From positions 21,054 through 85,053 of the forward strand of contig NZ_JAEANY010000004.1 in the NCBI RefSeq assembly GCF_016019885.1: a stretch of 64,000 nucleotides of DNA, written 5' to 3'. Below, piece by piece: positions 1 through 43,071 of this stretch (its first letter is position 1; every line of letters starts with the position of its first letter). The notes below the pieces were generated by a model, which was given only the letters and a program-made list of their open reading frames with translations, made no database searches and had not been told where the DNA came from. Source of the stretch: Aurantiacibacter sediminis. Its GTDB lineage: Bacteria > Pseudomonadota > Alphaproteobacteria > Sphingomonadales > Sphingomonadaceae. Position numbers and translations under genes: made by a program.

Positions 1-628
1 TCAATTCTGCTGCCATCCGCCGCCCGAAGTAATCGCCGAGCATTCCGATATCGCCCTCACGCACGCGGAGCGGCGGAAGAGTGATCACTTCAAAACTCAG
101 CCGGTCGAGCAGGTCGGCGCGGAAGGTACCCTCCTCTGCGCGGCGCGGAAGGTCTTCATTGGTGGCAGCGACGATGCGCACGTCGACCTGTGTCGGGCGA
201 CTGGCCCCGATGCGCGTCACCTCGCCATATTCGACGGCCCTCAGCAGCCGTTCTTGCGCGCCCATCGAGAGCGTGCCCAGTTCGTCTAGAAATAACGTGC
301 CCTGGTCGGCTTCCTCAAACCTTCCGGCGCGCGCTTTGGTAGCACCTGTAAACGCACCTTGTTCGTGGCCGAACAATTCGGCCTCGATCAGCGTTTCGGG
401 CAGCGCCGCGCAGTTCATCACGACGAGCGGGCTGTCCCAGCGATCGGATAGGCGGTGGAGACGTTCGGCAATCAATTCCTTGCCCGTCCCGCGCTCCCCG
501 ATCACGAGGACAGGGCGCGCCATGGGCGCTGCGCGGCTGGCCCGCTCCACCGCGTCGAGAAAGGCTCCGGACTGGCCGATAAACTGGTTTTTCTGCTCCA
601 CGCGCCAAGATATAGTGAAATTTCCCAT
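1..628 (-). CDS. pspF: Sigma-54 activator PspF (psp operon transcription activator), partial
   Basis: This is an AAA+ activator that lets sigma-54 RNA polymerase open the psp promoter during membrane stress. The frame read from 628 downward gives about 209 residues and runs off the window edge, so the HTH end is missing. Visible are a Walker A variant GERGTGKE (about residues 44-51), the sigma-54 contact loop GAFTGA (about 85-90), a Walker B-like TLFLDELG and the arginine-rich segment near FRADLLDRLSFEVITLPPLR. There is no N-terminal regulatory domain before the AAA+ module, as is known for PspF, which is instead controlled by PspA. It is divergent from the psp operon. Its start codon lies in an inverted repeat that may be its own binding site. 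Confidence 0.93.
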   Translation of the reverse strand, partial: MGNFTISWRVEQKNQFIGQSGAFLDAVERASRAAPMARPVLVIGERGTGKELIAERLHRLSDRWDSPLVVMNCAALPETLIEAELFGHEQGAFTGATKARAGRFEEADQGTLFLDELGTLSMGAQERLLRAVEYGEVTRIGASRPTQVDVRIVAATNEDLPRRAEEGTFRADLLDRLSFEVITLPPLRVREGDIGMLGDYFGRRMAAEL

Positions 629-636
629 ATCTTGGC
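604..636. promoter_or_regulatory. Perfect inverted repeat, candidate PspF enhancer (UAS)
   Basis: GCCAAGATAT and its exact complement ATATCTTGGC are separated by 13 bases. The repeat covers the pspF start codon (626-628). It lies roughly 93-125 bases upstream of the transcription start expected from the sigma-54 promoter at 703-718, about where PspF enhancers sit in enterobacteria. Binding here could both activate psp and repress pspF. The role is inferred; the repeat itself is seen directly. Confidence 0.6.
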
Positions 637-702
637 AACAGAAACCATGTCGCAAAACGGCAATTCACATTTTTTCGCTTTTTTTCAGTGTTTTATTAGA
701 AT

Positions 703-718
703 TGGCACACCCTTTGCT
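703..718 (+). promoter_or_regulatory. Sigma-54 (-24/-12) promoter of the psp operon
   Basis: The sequence TGGCACACCCTTTGCT matches the consensus TGGCAC-N5-TTGC. GG is at 704-705 and GC at 716-717, with exactly ten bases between them. The expected start of transcription is near 729, about 43 bases before the first small gene. It lies between divergent pspF and the psp operon, as expected for a PspF target. Confidence 0.88.
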
Positions 719-771: not shown

Positions 772-927
772 ATGTTCGATCACAGCTTCTTTTCCAGCAA
801 ACTCGGCCACGCCGCGCTGGTAAGCATTGCCGCGATGATCACATTTGCCGTGTTCACGCAGATGCAGCAGGATCTGGCCACCAGCAATATGCTGATTGCC
901 TCAACTCCAGCGGTTGAACTGGCGTGA
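772..927 (+). CDS. 51-aa single-pass membrane peptide, first gene of the psp operon
   Basis: A 51-residue frame begins 43 bases after the predicted sigma-54 transcription start. It has a short polar N-terminus (MFDHSFFSSKLGH), one hydrophobic segment (about residues 13-30, rich in Ala, Ile and Val) and a small polar tail. Its stop overlaps the GTG that opens the longest pspA frame. I do not recognise a named family. In size and layout it resembles the two peptides at 15968-16252, which also precede a PspC-type gene behind a sigma-54 promoter. The ribosome-binding site is weak (GGGATG about 8-12 bases upstream), so the existence of the protein is likely but not certain. Confidence 0.6.
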   Translation: MFDHSFFSSKLGHAALVSIAAMITFAVFTQMQQDLATSNMLIASTPAVELA

Positions 928-1064: not shown

Positions 1065-1760
1065 ATGGGCATTTTTTCCCGTACACGCGACATTATCGCC
1101 GCCAACTTCAACGAGCTGCTCGATCAGGCAGATGACCCTGCGAAGATGATCCGCATGATCATCCTCGAAATGGAAGAGACCCTTGTTGAAGTGCGAGCGA
1201 GCGCCGCGCGTACGATTGCCGACATGAAGGAAATGCAGCGCCATTCGGCCAAACTTGACCGGCTGCAGGCCGATTGGGCGGACAAGGCGCAGCTGGCGCT
1301 GAGCAAGGATCGCGAAGATCTTGCCCGTGCCGCGCTCATGGAACGCCGCAAGGCGACCGACATGATCGATCAGCTGAAGCAGGAAATGGCCGTGCTCGAC
1401 GATGCGCTGCGCGCCTATGAGCAGGACATTGCCAAGCTGCAGAACCGCCTGCGCGAAGCCCGCAGCCGGCAGAGCCAGATCGCGGCTCGCCTCGAAAGCG
1501 CGGAAAACCGCGTCAAGCTGCGCAGCCTGATGACCAATGAGCGCGTCGATGATGCGCTGACCCGCTTCGACCAGCTCGAACGCCGGGTGGATTACGCCGA
1601 GGGCAGAGCAGACTCGCTGCAAATTGCGGACGGTTCGGGAAACAGCCTCGCCGATGAATTCGCCGCCCTCGAAGGCAGCGACAAGATCGACGAGGAATTG
1701 GAGGAAATGAAGCGCGCGCTCGGCAAGGGCAGCAGCGCTGACAAGGGCAAAGGGGAATAA
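1065..1760 (+). CDS. pspA: Phage shock protein A, PspA/IM30 membrane-stress effector
   Basis: PspA binds PspF to keep it inactive and forms oligomers that stabilise a damaged inner membrane. From this ATG the product is 231 residues, close to the usual 220-230. It starts MGIFSRTRDIIAANFNELLDQ, as PspA proteins do, and is almost entirely helical coiled coil (LVEVRASAARTIADMK, DREDLARAALMERRK). GGAGGAAA at 1053-1060 is an excellent ribosome-binding site for this start. The frame stays open upstream to a GTG at 924, which would add 47 residues not usual in the family. It is followed two bases later by pspB. Confidence 0.94.
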   Translation: MGIFSRTRDIIAANFNELLDQADDPAKMIRMIILEMEETLVEVRASAARTIADMKEMQRHSAKLDRLQADWADKAQLALSKDREDLARAALMERRKATDMIDQLKQEMAVLDDALRAYEQDIAKLQNRLREARSRQSQIAARLESAENRVKLRSLMTNERVDDALTRFDQLERRVDYAEGRADSLQIADGSGNSLADEFAALEGSDKIDEELEEMKRALGKGSSADKGKGE

Positions 1761-1762
1761 TC

Positions 1763-2059
1763 ATGGAAGAGTTCATCGCCATTCCGATCGTTGTGATCGG
1801 CCTGCCGTGGCTGATCCTGCACTACGTAACCAAGTGGAAGACCGCCGCAACGATCACCACCGATGACGAAGCGCTGCTGGAAGATCTCTACAGCCTCGCC
1901 AAACGCCTCGATGAGCGCATGGATACCGTCGAACGCCTGGTCGCCGCCGACCATGTCGAATTCGACGCCCCGCGCCTCCAGCACGACAAGGAAGCCGACA
2001 ACCAGCCGCTACGCGAGCTTGAGGAACTGCTCGCCGAAAAGAAGGAAGCCCGCAAATGA
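1763..2059 (+). CDS. pspB: Phage shock protein B, PspB
   Basis: PspB is an inner-membrane protein that works with PspC to sense envelope stress and draw PspA off PspF. The 98 residues have an N-terminal membrane helix (about 5-22, IAIPIVVIGLPWLILHYV). A helical region follows with LYSLAKRLDERMDTVERLV (about 41-59), matching the PspB pattern of a coiled coil ending in an LE-x-IL-like signature. A charged tail follows. It is longer than the 74-residue E. coli protein. It starts two bases after pspA stops and overlaps pspC by four bases (ATGA). The C-terminal signature is the one repeated in the six genes downstream of pspC. Confidence 0.87.
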   Translation: MEEFIAIPIVVIGLPWLILHYVTKWKTAATITTDDEALLEDLYSLAKRLDERMDTVERLVAADHVEFDAPRLQHDKEADNQPLRELEELLAEKKEARK

Positions 2060-2439
2060 ATACCCCGCGCACCACGCTTTATCGCGACAAACAGAATGGC
2101 AAAGTCATGGGCGTCTGCGCCGGGATCGCGGACTATACCGGGGTCAACGTCCTCTGGATCCGATTGGGTGCCGTCCTCGCAACCTTTTTTGCTCTCGGTC
2201 CGCTCATGCCGGTCATCTACATCGTGATGGGCATCCTGCTGAACAAGAAACCGAAGCATCTCTATTCGGTCGATCCGCAGGAAACCAAATACTGGCAACG
2301 CGTGCGCCAGAACCCGAAGCGCACCGCCCGCGAGATCCGATCGCAGATGAAGGATGTAGATCGCCGCTTGGCCGCTGTTGAAAGTTTCTACGTCAACAGC
2401 AACCCCAGCCTGAACCGCGAAATTGAAAAGCTTCGCTGA
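2056..2439 (+). CDS. pspC: Phage shock protein C, PspC
   Basis: PspC is the membrane sensor partner of PspB. The 127 residues contain the PspC domain near the N-terminus: LYRDKQNGKVMGVCAGIADYTGV followed by a membrane hairpin (about 32-58, IRLGAVLATFFALGPLMPVIYIVMGILL). A cytoplasmic helical tail contains VDRRLAAVESFYVNSN, a usual C-terminal signature of long PspC proteins. The ATG overlaps the stop of pspB. A gap of 33 bases follows before the small paralogue array. Confidence 0.93.
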   Translation: MNTPRTTLYRDKQNGKVMGVCAGIADYTGVNVLWIRLGAVLATFFALGPLMPVIYIVMGILLNKKPKHLYSVDPQETKYWQRVRQNPKRTAREIRSQMKDVDRRLAAVESFYVNSNPSLNREIEKLR

Positions 2440-2472: not shown

Positions 2473-2784
2473 GTGGGTGAGCTTGGCGTACTGATACCGA
2501 TCATCGGCGTGTGCATTCCGATTGTCGCCATCTGGGCGAAGCACCGCAAGGATGTGCTGCAGATGCAAATTGAAGCGACTGCCAGCCAGAGTGCTGAAAA
2601 AGCCGCGCAATATGCGAGCAAGGTGCAGGCTCTGGAAGACCGGGTGCAGGTACTCGAGCGCATTGTGACCGACAAGGGTTACGACGTCGCCACTCAGATC
2701 GAGGCGCTGCGCGACACCAAATCAATCGAAGACACCGATCGCGGCGTGCAGCTCGATCTTGGTACACGGGAGAAAGTTAAGTGA
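2473..2784 (+). CDS. PspB-like small membrane coiled-coil protein, paralogue 1 of 6
   Basis: This 103-residue protein with a GTG start has an N-terminal membrane helix (about 3-21), a charged helical linker and the signature RVQVLERIVTDKGYD...IEALRD at residues 58-81. The same signature recurs in the next five genes and resembles the end of PspB. GAGGGG 12-17 bases upstream may be its ribosome-binding site. Its stop overlaps the next GTG start by four bases. No enzyme motif is present. Membership of the psp response is inferred from the operon and the PspB likeness; the exact function is unknown. Confidence 0.82.
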   Translation: MGELGVLIPIIGVCIPIVAIWAKHRKDVLQMQIEATASQSAEKAAQYASKVQALEDRVQVLERIVTDKGYDVATQIEALRDTKSIEDTDRGVQLDLGTREKVK

Positions 2785-3128
2785 CTTGGGAGATTGCTCT
2801 CTTCATCATTGGCATCACGCTTGCCTGCAACGTGGGCTGGCTCATCAACAACTGGATCCGCGCGAAGCATGGCTATCCGCTGGAAGATGAATGGGGCGGC
2901 ACGACTGAGAAGCCGGACACCGCCAAGGAAGCTCGCCTTGCTGGCCAGAACGCCAAGCTCATGGAAACGATGGAAAAAATGCAGGATCGCATGGTCGTGC
3001 TCGAACGCATCGTGACTGACAAGGGCTATCGTGTAGCCGAAGAAATCGAAGCGCTTCGCGATGCTCCGGTGCGCGAGAGCAGCGACAATGGTGTCCCCCT
3101 CAATCTCGGAAACAAGGAGAACGCGTGA
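2781..3128 (+). CDS. PspB-like small membrane coiled-coil protein, paralogue 2 of 6
   Basis: 115 residues from a GTG that overlaps the preceding stop (GTGA). A membrane helix (about 4-24) is followed by NNWIRAKHGYPLEDEWGG, a membrane-proximal motif shared almost word for word with paralogue 3. A coiled coil follows, and the signature RMVVLERIVTDKGYR...EIEALRD is at 70-94. The strong similarity to the next gene over the whole length points to a recent tandem duplication. Function unknown; probably a membrane partner in the Psp response. Confidence 0.82.
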   Translation: MTWEIALFIIGITLACNVGWLINNWIRAKHGYPLEDEWGGTTEKPDTAKEARLAGQNAKLMETMEKMQDRMVVLERIVTDKGYRVAEEIEALRDAPVRESSDNGVPLNLGNKENA

Positions 3129-3439
3129 TGGAATGGTTTGGTGGCTTGGGTATCGGGATCGGCGTTTCGGCCATTACCATCGGCTGGGTCGTGACCACCT
3201 GGATGCGGATCAAGAATGGCTACCCGCTGGAAAACAGCTGGGGCAAGGCAGTCTATCCCAAAAGCGCCGAGAACGAGGAGCGCGTGAAGCTGCTCACGCA
3301 AGAAAATGCCCAGCTGCGCGCCGAACTCGGCTCGATGAAAGATCGCCTCGCCAATGTGGAGCGGATCGTGACCGATAGCGGGTACCAGCTGACGCATGAG
3401 ATCGAGAGCCTGCGCGCCGGCAAGACGGAGGCCAATTGA
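3128..3439 (+). CDS. PspB-like small membrane coiled-coil protein, paralogue 3 of 6
   Basis: 103 residues from an ATG that shares one base with the preceding stop (TGATG); a GTG at 3125 is an alternative. A glycine-rich membrane helix (about 5-23) leads into TTWMRIKNGYPLENSWG, close kin of paralogue 2. A coiled coil follows, then the signature RLANVERIVTDSGYQ...EIESLR at 73-96. No catalytic residues are evident. Confidence 0.82.
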   Translation: MEWFGGLGIGIGVSAITIGWVVTTWMRIKNGYPLENSWGKAVYPKSAENEERVKLLTQENAQLRAELGSMKDRLANVERIVTDSGYQLTHEIESLRAGKTEAN

Positions 3440-3735
3440 TGGACTGGGATCTCGTCCTGATTTTCAGCTTCGTCATCGCGATTGTGCTGATTGTGATGCC
3501 CTTCGCCTATCTGGTGAACAAGCGTGTGCAGGAACACGAAGAGCGCAAGCTTGAACTGGAAGCAAGGATTGAAGAGGCCAAGGCAGCGCAGGCAGGGAAG
3601 CCCAGCGAAACGCATGCGCATCTGGAAGATCGACTGCGCGTGCTCGAGCGGATCGTCACCGATCCCTCAGCAGACCTCTCGCGCCAGATCGAAGATTTGC
3701 GTGAATTGAAAATGGATGCGGAGAAAGTGCGTTGA
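3439..3735 (+). CDS. PspB-like small membrane coiled-coil protein, paralogue 4 of 6
   Basis: 98 residues from an ATG joined to the upstream stop by TGATG. The hydrophobic helix (about 4-25) ends in PFAYLVNKRVQ. A strongly charged coiled coil (EHEERKLELEARIEEAKAA) and the signature RLRVLERIVTDPSADL...IEDLRE (65-89) follow. It differs from paralogues 2 and 3 in its membrane segment and lacks their GYPLE motif, so the array holds at least two subtypes. Confidence 0.82.
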   Translation: MDWDLVLIFSFVIAIVLIVMPFAYLVNKRVQEHEERKLELEARIEEAKAAQAGKPSETHAHLEDRLRVLERIVTDPSADLSRQIEDLRELKMDAEKVR

Positions 3736-3986
3736 ATTTTGGAACTGCCCTGGTCGCCATCGTCATCGTCATCGCGATCAGCGTGCTGATGATGCAACGC
3801 GCTGAAAACCGGAACGACCGAATCAAACACAGCGAAAGCGGGAAGAACAAGCAGCTTGAACAGGAGCGCGATGAAGCGCGAGCCGAGTTGGAAGACCTGC
3901 GCGAACGGGTAAAAGTGCTGGAAAAGATCGCCACCGATCCCGCCCGCCGCACCGCCGAAGAAATCGACAAATTGCGCGACGAATAG
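3732..3986 (+). CDS. PspB-like small membrane coiled-coil protein, paralogue 5 of 6
   Basis: 84 residues from a TTG start that overlaps the preceding stop. GGAGAAA just upstream supports translation from it. A single membrane helix (about 5-21) is followed by a highly charged coiled coil (ESGKNKQLEQERDEARAELEDL) and the signature RVKVLEKIATDPARR...EEIDKLRD at 59-83. TTG starts are rare, but no ATG or GTG is available here before the membrane helix. Confidence 0.78.
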   Translation: MNFGTALVAIVIVIAISVLMMQRAENRNDRIKHSESGKNKQLEQERDEARAELEDLRERVKVLEKIATDPARRTAEEIDKLRDE

Positions 3987-4025
3987 TCGCCTTTGGAAGG
4001 GAAGCCTCGAGAGGGGAGAATGATG

Positions 4026-4262
4026 ATGGAAGTTGATCTGATCATTGCCGGAACCGCGCTTGTCGCCCTGCTGATCATGGCGGCCAGCGCCCTTACCGGG
4101 TGGCAGAGTTGGCTGGCGCTCAAGAACCGCGAGCTGGAAATGCGGCAAGTGCCCGCCGAGCTGGAGAACGGCTCACCCGAAGGCATGGCACGGATTGAAA
4201 TTGCAGACCTCAAAGAACGCATCCGCAAGCTGGAAGCGATAGCCAGCGGGGTGGACCTGTAA
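4026..4262 (+). CDS. PspB-like small membrane coiled-coil protein, paralogue 6 of 6 (divergent)
   Basis: About 78 residues. Three ATGs in a row (4020, 4023, 4026) are possible starts; GAGGGGAG at 4011-4018 is best spaced for the last. The membrane helix (about 4-24) and a short coiled coil end in LKERIRKLEAIASGVDL. This is a shortened, degenerate form of the signature seen in the five preceding genes, without the EIE-LR tail. It is the last gene of the operon; a palindromic repeat follows seven bases after the stop. Confidence 0.75.
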   Translation: MEVDLIIAGTALVALLIMAASALTGWQSWLALKNRELEMRQVPAELENGSPEGMARIEIADLKERIRKLEAIASGVDL

Positions 4263-4268
4263 GTTCCC

Positions 4269-4334
4269 CGTCATCCCAGCGAAAGCTGGGATCTGGCAAA
4301 ATTTCACCAGATCCCAGCTTTCGCTGGGATGACG
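4269..4334. repeat. Intergenic palindromic repeat (28-base arms), possible terminator
   Basis: Two exactly complementary 28-base arms (4269-4296 and 4307-4334) flank a 10-base AT-rich loop. Each arm starts CGTCATCCCAGCGAAAGC and itself contains a short inner palindrome. The arms belong to the same family as the element translated inside the sulfite reductase gene at 42286-42370. Lying just after the psp operon, the hairpin could end its transcript, although no T-run follows. Confidence 0.85.
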
Positions 4335-19045: not shown

Positions 19046-21571
19046 GTGGCACAAAGCAGCATGAGCTGGGGCCGCGCTTGGACGATCGCGCGGCGTGATC
19101 TTTCCAGCGGATTTCGCGGCCTGCGCCTGTTGCTCATCTGCCTGTTTCTTGGCGTTGGTGCGCTAGCGGCAATCGGCAGCCTGACCTCCGCCATTCAGAC
19201 CGAACTTGATTCCCAAGGTCAGGCCATTCTCGGCGGCGACCTGGAAATCGAACTCTGGCAGCGCATGCTGAGCGAGGAGGAAGCGCAATTCCTCGAACAA
19301 TATGGCGAGCTTTCGGCGGGCTATCGCATGCAGGCCATGGCGACGACCGAGGATGTTGCTGTCCCGATCGAGCTGAAAGCAGTTGCGCCAAACTATCCGA
19401 TGTATGGCGAGCTGCTGATCGAAGACGCTGGCGCGTCTGCCGCTCCTGAAGGCAATGAAGCCTTCCTCGCACCCGGCGCAGCGGAGCGTTTGGGTGTCGC
19501 ACAAGGGGAAAGCTTTACAGTCGGCTCAAAGCAATTGGTGGTCGCCGGCATCATCGAGGAAGAGCCCGATCGCCTGAGCGAAGGTTTTGCCTTGGGTCAG
19601 ACGATCATTGTGGCGCAAGACTTCCCTGCGGCAGCCGGTCTGACGCTCCCAGGCGCGCTTTACGAGACGAAAACTCGCCTCGCTTTCGATGGCAATTACG
19701 ACGCCGAGGAAGTCGAGGAAGCGCTGTTCGAAGCTTTCCCGGGCGTCCCATTCGATACACGCACGGCTGACCGTGCATCGCCGGGCGCAGAGCGCTTCGT
19801 CAGCCGCATGGGCGAATTCCTGACGCTGGTGGGTCTTGCCGCGCTCGTCATCGCGGGAATCGGCATTGGCGGCGGTGTGAATTCCTATTTGGAGGCGCGG
19901 CGTAACTCGATCGCGACCCTCAAGATCCTCGGCGCCACATCGCGAGACATCTCGCGCATCTACGCGCTAGAAGTGGGAGCAGCCGCTCTCGTTGGTTCGC
20001 TTGCCGGGCTTGTTGCAGGTGTGCTGGTCACTCCGTTACTTGCCAATGCACTGGGTGCGCTATTGCCGGTCAATACATCGCTGACGCTAGACTGGTGGGC
20101 GCTGGTCCGCGCCATGCTATTCGGTCTGCTTGTGGCAATGGTGTTTGCCGCGCCTCCGCTGGCGCGCGCCAAGACTTTCCCAGCAATGGCCCTGATGAGG
20201 GCGCGCGTTTCGCCGCTGGCCCGGCAGTGGAAAGCCGCTGCTCTTCCCGTCGGAATTGGACTTGCAGGGATCGCTATTCTCGCCATTGCCTTCTCTGCGC
20301 AGCCGCTTCTTTCGGCAGGCTTCCTTGTCGGTGCTGCACTGATCCTTGGGCTACTCGCATTGCTGGGCATCGCGATCCGCAAGGCTGCGGCCAAGGCACC
20401 GCGTGCGAGCAATCCGATTGTGCGCGCAGCTATTGCCAATCTCCACCGTCCCGGCGCGGCGACCGGTTCGCTCGTGACCGCACTCGGCTTTGGTCTCTCC
20501 GCCTTCGTCCTGCTCGCAGGCGTCCAGTCGAGCCTCGACGGCAATATCCAGCGCTCCGTGCCCGATCGCGCGCCAGACTATTTCGTCCTCGATATCCCCA
20601 AGGATGGCCTCGAAGAATTCGGAGCGATTATCGGTGGTGTGTCCGAAGATGCGGTGATCGAAGCGGTCCCGACGCTGCGCGGCTTCATCGTATCCTACGG
20701 GCCTGCGGACAATCCCACCGTGGTCGCAGAGCTTGAAGAGCTACCCGAAGGCGCATGGGGCCTTAGCGGGGAACGCGGCCTCACCTATTCCAGCACGCTG
20801 CCGGAGGGCAATGCGGTGGTCGAAGGCGAGTGGTGGAACGCTGATCATAGCGGCGACAACCTTGTATCGATCGATGCCGATCTGGCGCAGGCTGCGGGGA
20901 TCGAAGTTGGGCACATAATCACCGTCTCCGTTCTGGGCGTTGAGCGGACTGCGCGGGTGGCAAGCATCCGCCGCATCGACTGGGAAAGCCTCGGCTTCAA
21001 CAATGTCTATATCTTCTCGCCCAACACGCTGGAGGACACCCCGCACAATCTGGCTGCAACGGTCGATCTGCCTGAGGGCACTGAGGCTGGCGGATTGCTG
21101 CGACAGCTGGTGCAGGCCTTCCCTGCGGCCAGCGTGATTGAAGTCGGCCCGATCCTAACCGAAGCACGCGCCATCCTCGATCAAGTCTCGATTGCCATTC
21201 TGGCCGCGGCATCGGTGGCGGTGCTAGCCGGGATCGCGGTGCTTCTGGGAGCAATCGCTGCGGCGCGGGCTGCGCGGATTTACGACACGGTAATCCTGCG
21301 CGTGCTGGGCGCCAGCCGTAAACAGTTGCTCGCACTGCAATTCGCCGAGTTCGGCCTGCTCGCAGCCGTACTTGCGGGGGTGGCGCTTGCTCTTGGCACT
21401 GGGATTGCGTGGCTGATCGTGGTGCAATTGTTCGAGTTCGATTGGCTGCCCGATTGGACGGAAATTCTCGCCGTTCTGGGCGGGGGGCTGCTGCTTGTTT
21501 TCGCCTTCGCTCTCGGCGCATCGCTGCCTCTGCTCAGAGCTCGCCCCGCGCAAACGCTGCGGTCGCTATGA
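19046..21571 (+). CDS. ybbP: FtsX-like ABC transporter permease, YbbP family
   Basis: 841 residues from a GTG start, the usual size for YbbP. An N-terminal membrane helix (about 24-46) is followed by a large periplasmic domain. A first FtsX core of three or four helices (about 255-410), two further helices, a second periplasmic domain and a second FtsX core at the C-terminus (about 710-830) follow. Both FtsX cores carry the typical LRVLGASRKQLLALQFAEFG-like region. It forms a complex with the upstream ATPase. Confidence 0.9.
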   Translation: MAQSSMSWGRAWTIARRDLSSGFRGLRLLLICLFLGVGALAAIGSLTSAIQTELDSQGQAILGGDLEIELWQRMLSEEEAQFLEQYGELSAGYRMQAMATTEDVAVPIELKAVAPNYPMYGELLIEDAGASAAPEGNEAFLAPGAAERLGVAQGESFTVGSKQLVVAGIIEEEPDRLSEGFALGQTIIVAQDFPAAAGLTLPGALYETKTRLAFDGNYDAEEVEEALFEAFPGVPFDTRTADRASPGAERFVSRMGEFLTLVGLAALVIAGIGIGGGVNSYLEARRNSIATLKILGATSRDISRIYALEVGAAALVGSLAGLVAGVLVTPLLANALGALLPVNTSLTLDWWALVRAMLFGLLVAMVFAAPPLARAKTFPAMALMRARVSPLARQWKAAALPVGIGLAGIAILAIAFSAQPLLSAGFLVGAALILGLLALLGIAIRKAAAKAPRASNPIVRAAIANLHRPGAATGSLVTALGFGLSAFVLLAGVQSSLDGNIQRSVPDRAPDYFVLDIPKDGLEEFGAIIGGVSEDAVIEAVPTLRGFIVSYGPADNPTVVAELEELPEGAWGLSGERGLTYSSTLPEGNAVVEGEWWNADHSGDNLVSIDADLAQAAGIEVGHIITVSVLGVERTARVASIRRIDWESLGFNNVYIFSPNTLEDTPHNLAATVDLPEGTEAGGLLRQLVQAFPAASVIEVGPILTEARAILDQVSIAILAAASVAVLAGIAVLLGAIAAARAARIYDTVILRVLGASRKQLLALQFAEFGLLAAVLAGVALALGTGIAWLIVVQLFEFDWLPDWTEILAVLGGGLLLVFAFALGASLPLLRARPAQTLRSL

Positions 21572-41094: not shown

Positions 41095-41387
41095 AAATTC
41101 TCACCGGAAACGATCTCAAATCAGGTGCCGTCGTATGGTGGGACGGCCAGAATTGGTCGCTGCATATCGCCGACGCCGCCGATGCTGGGGACGAGGGAGA
41201 GGCCATCATGGCGCGTGAGGAATCCGCCCGCCGCGTGAATGCGCCCTATGCCATAGCCGCCGAGCAAACCGAAGACGGCCCCCGCCCCGCACACATCAAG
41301 GACCGCGTCCGCGCGCTCGGCCCGACCGTGCGGCAAGACCTTGGATACAAAGCCGCCGAGCAGCGCGGCTGGGACTGGGTTATCTGA
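41091..41387 (+). CDS. DUF2849 protein of the sulfite reduction operon
   Basis: 98 residues from an ATG overlapping cobA (ATGA). Family DUF2849, found in alphaproteobacteria almost always between cobA/cysG and cysI. It begins MKILTGNDLKSGAVVWWDGQ, has an acidic centre and ends KAAEQRGWDWVI. No catalytic motif is known. Context argues for a helper of sulfite reductase; one base separates it from cysI. Confidence 0.87.
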   Translation: MKILTGNDLKSGAVVWWDGQNWSLHIADAADAGDEGEAIMAREESARRVNAPYAIAAEQTEDGPRPAHIKDRVRALGPTVRQDLGYKAAEQRGWDWVI

Positions 41388-41388
41388 C

Positions 41389-43071
41389 ATGTATCAATAC
41401 GACAAATACGATCAGGCGATGGTGGACACCCGCGTTGAGGAATTCCGCGACCAATGCAGACGCCGCCTTGAGGGCTCGCTCAGCGAAGACCAGTTCAAGC
41501 CGCTCCGGCTGATGAACGGGCTTTATCTGCAGCTTCACGCCTATATGCTGCGCGTCGCCATTCCCTATGGCACGCTCAACAGCCGCCAGATGCATGCGCT
41601 GGCCGACATCGCGGACAAGTATGACAAGGGCTACGGCCACTTCACTACGCGGCAGAACATCCAGTACAATTGGATCAAGCTGGAAGATGCGGGCGACATT
41701 CTGGCGGACCTCGCCAAGGTCGAAATGCACGCCATCCAGACGAGCGGGAATTGCATTCGCAATATCTCGTCAGACCATTTCGCTGGCGCTGCGGCGGATG
41801 AAGTCGTGGATCCAAGGCCTTATGCCGAATTGCTGAGACAGTGGTCGAGCTTCCATCCGGAATTTTCGTACCTGCCGCGCAAGTTCAAGATCGCCGTAAT
41901 CGCGTCGGAAAAGGATCGCGCGGCGATGCGGCTGCACGATATCGGGATCAACATCGTGCGCAATGATACGGGTGAGCTCGGTGCGGCTTTCTATGTCGGC
42001 GGCGGCATGGGCCGGACCCCGATGATCGCCCCACTGATCCGCGAATTCGTGCCGCTGGACCAGATGGTCACCTATGCTGAGGCCTGCCTGCGCGTCTACA
42101 ATCGCCACGGTCGCCGCGACAACAAGTACAAGGCGCGCATCAAGATCCTTGTCCATGAAATGGGCGCAGAGGAATATGCGCGACAGGTGGAGGAGGAATT
42201 CGCCCACCTGCTGGACCAGGGCGTAGAACCGCCATTGGCAGAATTGGAGCGGATCAAGGGCTATTTCGAGCTTCCAGAACCATTACGTCATCCCCGCGAA
42301 GGCGGGGATCAAGCTACATTTGCAGCGCGGATCGAAGAAAAGCTGGATTCCCGCCTTCGCGGGAATGACGAGTTTGCAAAATGGGTACGGCGCAACCTCA
42401 ATCCCCACCATCAATCTGATTACGTCTCAGCCGTTATCAGTCTAAAACCCGTCGGCGGCATTCCCGGCGATGCAACGGCCGAGCAGATGCATCTGATGGC
42501 TGAGCTCGCGAAGGAGTTTTCGTTCGACGAATGCCGCGTCATGCACACGCAGAATATCGTGCTACCGCATGTCGAAATCGCGCGATTGCATAAGTTGTGG
42601 GAGAAGCTGAAAGTTGCTGGCCTCGGCACGCCCAATCTTGACCAGATCGACGATATAATCGCCTGCCCCGGCCTCGATTATTGCTCGCTCGCCAATGCCC
42701 GTTCGATCCCGATCGCGCAGAAGATTTCGCAGCGGTTTGCCACATCCGGCAAAGGCGATGCGCTGGGCGAATTGAAGCTCAAGATCTCAGGCTGCATCAA
42801 TGCCTGCGGGCATCACCATGCGGGCCACATCGGCATCCTTGGCGTCGACCGGAAAGGCGTCGAGAATTACCAGTTACTGCTCGGCGGCAGTGAGGCGGAA
42901 GATGTCTCGCTCGCGAAAATCACCGGCCCCGGCTTTGACGAGGCAGGCATCGTGGATGCAGTCGAGAAAGTGGCCGATACTTACCTGGCGAACAAAGTGG
43001 ATGGCGAACGCTTCCTCGATACCTATCGCCGCGTCGGCATGGATACGTTCAAGGAGGCGCTGTATGCCTGA
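41389..43071 (+). CDS. cysI: Nitrite/sulfite reductase hemoprotein (assimilatory sulfite reductase), with translated palindromic element
   Basis: 560 residues. It reduces sulfite to sulfide with six electrons using siroheme and a 4Fe-4S cluster. The siroheme-binding part GHFTTRQNIQYNWI and the cluster cysteines in CPGLDYCSLANARS and SGCINACGHHHAGHIG are intact. Residues about 300-328 (HPREGGD ... SRLRGND) are the in-frame translation of an 85-base palindromic repeat, lying in the linker before the second half. Everything else is ordinary. It is followed by the DUF934 gene with an eight-base overlap. Confidence 0.93.
   Translation: MYQYDKYDQAMVDTRVEEFRDQCRRRLEGSLSEDQFKPLRLMNGLYLQLHAYMLRVAIPYGTLNSRQMHALADIADKYDKGYGHFTTRQNIQYNWIKLEDAGDILADLAKVEMHAIQTSGNCIRNISSDHFAGAAADEVVDPRPYAELLRQWSSFHPEFSYLPRKFKIAVIASEKDRAAMRLHDIGINIVRNDTGELGAAFYVGGGMGRTPMIAPLIREFVPLDQMVTYAEACLRVYNRHGRRDNKYKARIKILVHEMGAEEYARQVEEEFAHLLDQGVEPPLAELERIKGYFELPEPLRHPREGGDQATFAARIEEKLDSRLRGNDEFAKWVRRNLNPHHQSDYVSAVISLKPVGGIPGDATAEQMHLMAELAKEFSFDECRVMHTQNIVLPHVEIARLHKLWEKLKVAGLGTPNLDQIDDIIACPGLDYCSLANARSIPIAQKISQRFATSGKGDALGELKLKISGCINACGHHHAGHIGILGVDRKGVENYQLLLGGSEAEDVSLAKITGPGFDEAGIVDAVEKVADTYLANKVDGERFLDTYRRVGMDTFKEALYA
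42286..42370. repeat. Palindromic repeat element inside the cysI reading frame
   Basis: CGTCATCCCCGCGAAGGCGG begins the left arm, and the complement of CCGCCTTCGCGGGAATGACG ends the right arm. The arms differ at two positions. The consensus equals that of the intergenic element at 4269-4334. Translated in the cysI frame it gives the recognisable pair HPREGGD and SRLRGND. Confidence 0.88.

Follow-up and report, generated by a model that had tools for sequence, protein, structure and literature searches.

The psp operon of Aurantiacibacter sediminis continues downstream of pspA, pspB, and pspC into six small genes (here called minis, m1–m6), whose products are, by sequence comparison, best described as a membrane anchor followed by a helix of the PspC-tail/PspB type, without the PspC core. 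The array behind pspABC is found across Sphingomonadaceae, which supports the preliminary description insofar as the array was seen as an expanded set of membrane adaptors. We put at about even chances the reading that these tail-only relatives of PspC and PspB are controlled by PspF and sigma54 and give PspA extra places to dock at the membrane. This reading has computed support from homology, operon position, predicted topology, conservation, and joint absence with PspA, while PspA binding, membrane recruitment, an effect on PspF, and co-expression are inferred.

The psp locus and its six small genes

The following features were identified at one end of the window, i.e., the whole analysed stretch of 64,000 nucleotides.

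2–655, minus strand: N-terminal part of pspF, a sigma54 activator (TIGR02974, E 4.7e-98, residues 26–218 of the in-window part)
703–717, plus strand: sigma54-type promoter TGGCACACCCTTTGC, an exact consensus match
772–927, plus strand: leader ORF of 51 aa with one hydrophobic stretch, between the sigma54 site and pspA
1065–1760, plus strand: pspA (TIGR02977, E 1.9e-82, over the cut-off)
1763–2059, plus strand: pspB (TIGR02976, E 4.3e-25, over the cut-off)
2056–2439, plus strand: pspC (TIGR02978, E 8.7e-42, over the cut-off); the mini-related tail comprises its last 25 residues
2473–2784, plus strand: m1, 103 aa; membrane anchor, coiled coil, and tail motif (TIGR02976, E 1.9e-5; TIGR02978 C-terminus, E 0.0029; both below cut-off)
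2781–3128, plus strand: m2, 115 aa; like m1, plus a GYPLED segment; 4-nt overlap with m1
3125–3439, plus strand: m3, 104 aa (103 aa with the ATG at 3128 as start); like m1, plus a GYPLEN segment (TIGR02978 C-terminus, E 5e-4)
3436–3735, plus strand: m4, 99 aa (98 aa with the ATG at 3439 as start); like m1 (TIGR02978 C-terminus, E 4.8e-4)
3732–3986, plus strand: m5, 84 aa; like m1 (TIGR02978 C-terminus, E 8.9e-4)
4020–4262, plus strand: m6, 80 aa, alternative starts possible (mini profile, E 4.6e-5)
4269–4334, plus strand: perfect 28-bp hairpin at the 3' end of the operon (-59.2 kcal/mol, z -11.3)

The pspF gene, divergent to pspA, runs off the window, and its start codon is uncertain. A loose regular expression, applied without a chance control, located a similar sigma54-type site ahead of pspA in 139 of 150 loci. 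A second exact match to the sigma54-type consensus lies at 21394–21408, within the ORF 19046–21571. The 51-aa ORF, with relatives in 80/153 Sphingomonadaceae loci (tblastn, duplicates included), is a conserved leader micro-protein of the psp operon.

At the other end of the operon, the hairpin is followed by a sufE-like gene, and a terminator scan found no T-run terminator downstream of m6. A copy of one hairpin arm with three mismatches is located at about 42292, inside the ORF 41341–43071, the translation of which contains an in-frame stretch HPREGGD...SRLRGND; this gives the appearance of a palindromic element having inserted into a coding gene. The strong hairpin downstream of m6 may be a mobile palindrome. 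The promoter-like site, divergent pspF, overlapping genes, and the hairpin after m6 are the features seen of a candidate transcription unit controlled by PspF and sigma54.

All six small ORFs first noticed downstream of pspABC are present (80–115 aa), and the genes are joined as had been described: within m1–m5, a translationally coupled set, each of the four stop codons overlaps the next start (-4 or -1), and m6 starts 33 nt after m5. Junctions of -4 or -1 were also seen at 70 of 73 mini-mini boundaries in 18 same-genus loci including the window, with the reservation that start-picking was biased toward starts close to the stop of the gene before. Besides the window, 17 loci of the genus were read, and pspC is followed by four to six minis in every one of them; an 18th same-genus relative (G004) yielded no PspA match and was left out of this reading. 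The final gene, m6, keeps the first half of the tail motif and has lost the second; its relatives were found in 147/153 loci (tblastn, duplicates included).

Rough Nei–Gojobori estimates of dN/dS between the window and four relatives range from 0.011 to 0.252 for m1–m6, similar to 0.051–0.202 for pspA–C in the matching comparison; the mini values rest on 32–113 codons each, with some dS saturated, and were derived from the end portions of stop-to-stop ORFs, limited to 360 nt and possibly including some upstream bases. The minis are apparently under purifying selection. Given the low dN/dS and the recurrence of four to six minis after pspC in the 17 same-genus loci, the array is not a chance arrangement of ORFs.

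Relation of the minis to PspC and PspB

The minis had been called PspB-like, and a distant relation does hold (E 1.9e-5 for m1), whereas membership in the family does not. The PspB cut-offs (51.7 bits for TIGR02976 and 25.6 bits for PF06667) are reached by none of the scanned minis; the best in the window are m1 with 24.9 bits against TIGR02976 and m2 with 12.7 bits against PF06667, and the best E-values among the 93 minis of two alignments, 2.3e-7 (TIGR02976) and 1.4e-4 (PF06667), also fall short. On the PspC side, m1–m5 match TIGR02978 in its C-terminal tail as far as the final position (121/121; E 4.8e-4 to 0.06, under the whole-protein cut-off), m6 has no TIGR02978 match, and no match to the PspC core (PF04024) was listed for m1–m6 up to the limit of E 10, at which HMMER filters drop most very weak matches. 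At E ≤ 0.01, the family matched most often among the 18950 NCBIfam models was PspC (26/63 array minis, 17/30 minis of other families of the order), followed by PspB (21/63 and 13/30), while the Pfam family matched by most minis was PspB (10/63 and 7/30). Chance coiled-coil matches occur at similar E-values, e.g., FtsL, CreC, and bZIP at about 1e-3.

The search was also run in reverse, with a profile of 63 full-length minis that contains no PspB or PspC. In the six-frame translation of the genome to which the window belongs, only three things were found at E ≤ 1: m1–m5, the window segment 2194–2445 with an E-value of 1.1e-5, which is the C-terminal half of PspC, and m6 (E 4.6e-5). In 20 further genomes searched in six frames at E ≤ 0.1, 41 matches had E-values above 1e-6, and all were mapped: 15 fall on PspC, 15 on m6, six on PspB, and five outside the psp locus (E 0.018–0.095). 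The C-terminal part of PspC was thus found in 15 of 16 family genomes (the exception being G007), several matches covering the tail only, and m6 likewise in 15 of 16 (the exception being G053); PspB was found in six of the 20 genomes. Besides these 41, two strong off-locus matches were mapped; the other strong matches were called minis by position, including those away from the locus in G022, G024, and G029. Strong off-locus matches in these three genomes and in G018 and G306 are taken for solo minis, the remaining strong ones for array minis; the extra match in G018 (C1:576154–576291) has an E-value of 2.9e-13. Profile similarity to PspB, anticipated in the preliminary description, was hence detected weakly, but the mini profile finds the C-terminal part of PspC more often (15 vs. 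6).

The same shift applies to the signature motif, previously noted in five of the genes and likened to the end of PspB. Proteins m1–m5 do carry it, in the form (L/V)E(R/K)I(V/A)TD...(Q/E)I(E/D)xLR, but it is common to the C-terminus of PspC more than to that of PspB. It aligns without gaps to the last 25 residues of PspC, which lie in the region reported to bind PspA, so that R57, E62, I76, L79, and R80 of m1 fall on R104, E109, I123, L126, and R127 of PspC. These five belong to the eight invariant or nearly invariant positions of the minis, and their PspC counterparts are invariant or nearly so; the PspC-like tail is the most conserved part of the minis.

Profile-profile comparison by hhalign gave 14.8, 42.4, 94.1, 63.2, and 77.9% for m1–m5 against the PspC tail, in a register that reaches the last tail residue, and 2.4, 45.4, 26.0, 22.1, and 1.6% against PspB, m2 scoring slightly higher with PspB. 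Against three coiled-coil segments of PspA, m1–m5 scored 0.1–6.9%; however, the minis of other families match one of these segments at 60%, which argues against specificity. The truncated m6 scored 0% with the PspC tail, 69–93% with m3, m4, and m5, 7.2% with m1, and 1.6% with m2. With the minis of other families, m5 scored 99.5% and m1–m4 97.5–99.3%; judged by these profiles, m5 is the type closest to them. On sequence similarity, then, the closest Psp relative of most mini types is the C-terminal part of PspC, although m1 and m2 each have one test in which PspB scores at least as high. The reverse search, the hhalign register, and the shared conserved residues lead us to regard the minis as tail-only relatives of PspC and PspB rather than members of the PspB family.

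The similarity to PspB leaves room for a role that does not include PspA at all: the minis might be PspB-like regulators of PspC, their tails pairing with the PspC tail, in the way PspB does, and either holding the system off or providing PspC with different sensing partners. Its best arguments are that m1 matches TIGR02976 along most of the profile (residues 3–67), which is its best NCBIfam score, that PspB ranks second among the matched NCBIfam families and first in Pfam, and that two genomes (G361, locus L109; G069, locus L108) with no canonical PspB in the locus or elsewhere in the genome keep PspA, PspC, and minis, m1 among them. The preference of the mini profile for PspC (15 vs. 6 of 20 genomes) counts against it, as does G069, where the operon PspC has no tail to pair with, and we consider such a role rather unlikely. 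PspC ORFs ending before the tail were found in 5/146 cases in distinct loci, the other four adjoining a normal PspC. Few as they are, the tail-less PspC and the genomes without PspB point to a tail that may act in trans, consistent with the docking reading.

Topology and predicted structure

Among the 339 minis 65 aa or more in length (from Sphingomonadaceae and other families), 319 have a hydrophobic helix near the N-terminus; this is a set in which a few starts were chosen too far downstream, e.g., that of m1 in the window. More lysine and arginine residues follow the helix than precede it in 317 of these 319, and the mini tail is therefore predicted to be cytoplasmic. Hydropathy and the positive-inside count thus bear out the N-terminal membrane helix of the initial reading, one per mini, with the remainder predicted to lie in the cytoplasm. 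AlphaFold predicts m1 as one helix (residues 3–89; mean pLDDT 74.8, pTM 0.35), modeled best at residues 61–70 (pLDDT 92), and places two C-terminal helices in PspC (91–115 and 117–126; pLDDT 69.8, pTM 0.40); both models are of moderate quality. In a sequence search of the PDB, neither the minis nor PspB or PspC had a convincing relative, the best PspC matches being designed proteins.

Distribution and copy number

With a profile of the 38-position motif (A2), minis were found in 232 of 249 Sphingomonadaceae genomes, representing 88 of 96 genera, with one to nine minis per matching genome. Outside the family the numbers drop. Genomes from other families of the order have zero to two matches each; the class search at E ≤ 1e-5 gave matches in four of 190 genomes, including three Sphingomonadaceae; and in the phylum, 28 of 299 match at E ≤ 0.001, comprising 13 Sphingomonadaceae, two other members of the class, and 13 genomes of other classes (1–3 matches each). 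No psp gene lies nearby for 27 of 30 other-family minis (about 3 kb of DNA each, i.e., within about 1.5 kb), and none was found within about 1.5 kb at any of seven loci from other members of the class or other classes. The order, class, and phylum searches therefore indicate that single minis are more widespread, and that expansion within the psp operon is seen only in Sphingomonadaceae.

The remaining three other-family minis are located in a psp operon and all come from one family, f8, as do three further loci of the same kind. These six (L110, L112, L114, L197, L225, and L226) have a second, short PspC with one mini after it, as though a PspC had been divided into two pieces.

Within Sphingomonadaceae, 73 loci contained 2, 3, 4, 5, 6, 7, and 8 motif-bearing minis in 5, 20, 18, 20, 7, 2, and 1 cases, respectively. 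As these loci were chosen for having minis, prevalence is to be taken from the 249-genome search. Two equal-scoring mini matches on opposite strands of G261 (C3:3579886–3580352 and 3622097–3622563), about 42 kb apart, suggest an array that appears to be duplicated in inverted orientation.

Smaller operons were seen in 15 further loci, taken from family genomes in which the motif profile matched once or not at all, namely, several with pspABC-m5-m6, two with pspABC-m6, one with pspABC and no mini, and that of Zymomonas with pspABC and one mini. Zymomonas expression papers were considered as a source of induction data for minis and ruled out: exact matches of the published ZM4 qPCR primers, by which the locus was assigned, place ZMO1062 (pspD in those papers; locus L247) in an ORF upstream of pspA that is no mini, so its induction is uninformative on the mini.

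Among the 17 family genomes without a mini match, 13 also lack a PspA match, compared with none of the 22 genomes with one mini (Fisher p 3e-7, ignoring relatedness). Of the four that have PspA, which weigh against the docking reading, one is devoid of any mini, two have m6 only, and in one the locus is cut.

This distribution bears on a second alternative, that the minis are homo- or hetero-oligomeric coiled-coil membrane scaffolds, serving membrane domains or some other machine and only co-regulated with Psp. The solitary minis of other taxa (27/30 and 7/7 loci) and the prediction of m1 as one continuous helix would fit such scaffolds. Yet in Sphingomonadaceae the minis sit in the psp operon, most family genomes without minis have no PspA, and the part conserved best is the PspC-like tail, all of which makes a bare scaffold improbable. 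For the docking reading, the same solitary loci imply that PspA binding may not be the ancestral role.

Array order and orthologous types

Types were assigned with one HMM per mini type in 143 distinct loci (153 minus 10 duplicates), fetched for carrying the mini family. The array follows pspA in 141 of them, the other two (L060 and L119) beginning at contig ends; synteny is thus family-wide. The main order is A-B-C-m1-(m2)-m3-(m4)-m5-m6, and another group has m2-m3-m1-m5-m6. A-B-C, including canonical PspB, is present in 139 loci, m6 is last in 137, m3 occurs in 131 (many loci were fetched with m3 itself), and m2 in 88.

As the motif has only about 38 residues, gene-order comparison was used in place of a paralogue tree, and this test is independent of the type HMMs. 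Reciprocal-best matches of the window minis gave at least three pairs in 126 of 137 loci. Of these 126, 107 are colinear with the window, vs. 9.0 expected for random order, and 19 are not.

The resemblance of m2 and m3 had been ascribed to recent duplication, a suggestion that we rule out. The two co-occur in 82/143 loci, and their identity within a genome (median 54%, n = 82) is lower than that of the window proteins to their orthologues (63% for m2, n = 87; 77% for m3, n = 130). By this measure m2 and m3 are old paralogues.

Proposed role

We propose that m1–m5, and m6 in shortened form, reproduce as separate proteins the C-terminal membrane helix and cytoplasmic tail of PspC, with a more distant relation to PspB. 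They would be made together with PspA, PspB, and PspC from one stress-induced message and reside in the inner membrane, the tail facing the cytoplasm. There they could offer additional docking sites that bind PspA, or the tails of PspC and PspB, bring PspA oligomers to the membrane, and modulate how PspF is released. The view that unrelated passenger genes only converged on the membrane-helix and coiled-coil composition of PspC and PspB, prompted by window E-values of 1.9e-5 to 0.06 that lie partly in the chance coiled-coil range, has very little to recommend it given the fixed register, the shared invariant residues, the purifying selection, and the assignment of 36 of the 41 weak six-frame matches to PspC, m6, or PspB.

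A bolder version of the docking model is offered tentatively, as we think it somewhat less probable than its converse. Sphingomonadaceae may have detached from PspC the tail that binds PspA and multiplied it into separate anchors that are orthologous and not interchangeable; the result would be a multi-part docking array for PspA, the composition of which sets the place and strength of the Psp (ESCRT-III-like) response, and in some lineages, such as that of G069, the tail would be available only in trans. As each mini resembles the tail of the stress sensor PspC, the data suggest that Sphingomonadaceae use a whole set of membrane anchors, compared with one or two in model bacteria.

PspA is a bacterial ESCRT-III relative, and its recruitment to damaged membrane is a subject of ongoing study. 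The minis are small natural reagents for asking whether PspA is recruited by the PspC tail on its own, and whether the response to different stresses runs through different anchors. Moreover, 344 minis were collected, none of those scanned reaching a Psp family cut-off, and the tail reading, if it holds, would give a name to many small genes.

Comparison with known systems

In E. coli, a PspC fragment (residues 40–119) consisting of the membrane helix and the C-terminal part is reported to bind PspA, while a leucine-zipper mutant does not, in a 2010 study that placed the PspC C-terminus in the periplasm (PMC3068692), an assignment that counts against the docking reading. Binding of the PspC tail to PspA has been reported also for Yersinia. 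The minis look like this E. coli fragment, and by analogy they might bind PspA.

The minis share with PspC (TIGR02978/PF04024) the succession of a membrane helix and a cytoplasmic helix, the gapless 25-residue tail motif with its conserved R, E, I, L, and R, and the operon; unlike PspC, they have no core, only one membrane helix, and several copies per operon. With PspB (TIGR02976/PF06667) they share the N-terminal membrane helix, the charged cytoplasmic helix, the LE-I motif, and the operon, but they stay below the curated cut-offs, carry an additional second half of the motif (..IExLR), and usually occur beside a canonical PspB.

The notion that known Psp systems have a single PspB needs correction. 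Duplicate PspB genes within the operon (AOL22920.1) are mentioned in passages of a 2024 survey of Psp systems, as are PspC proteins to which a divergent PspB is fused at the C-terminus (PMC11237479). Extra PspB-type genes in the operon and a PspC C-terminus related to PspB are thus common to that survey and to our results; the ordered array, the orthologous types, the copy numbers, and the link between the signature and the PspC tail do not figure in those passages (PMC11237479). As far as the titles of the literature on PspB or phage shock protein in Erythrobacter and sphingomonads show, the array, its order and types, and the PspC-tail link are undescribed.

A parallel in role exists in Bacillus subtilis, where LiaI is the membrane anchor of the PspA homologue LiaH (passages in PMC9239133). 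It belongs to another phylum and is under another regulator, and we liken it to the minis by role, not by homology; as a small, operon-encoded membrane protein that recruits a PspA homologue, it nevertheless exemplifies how the minis may work (PMC9239133).
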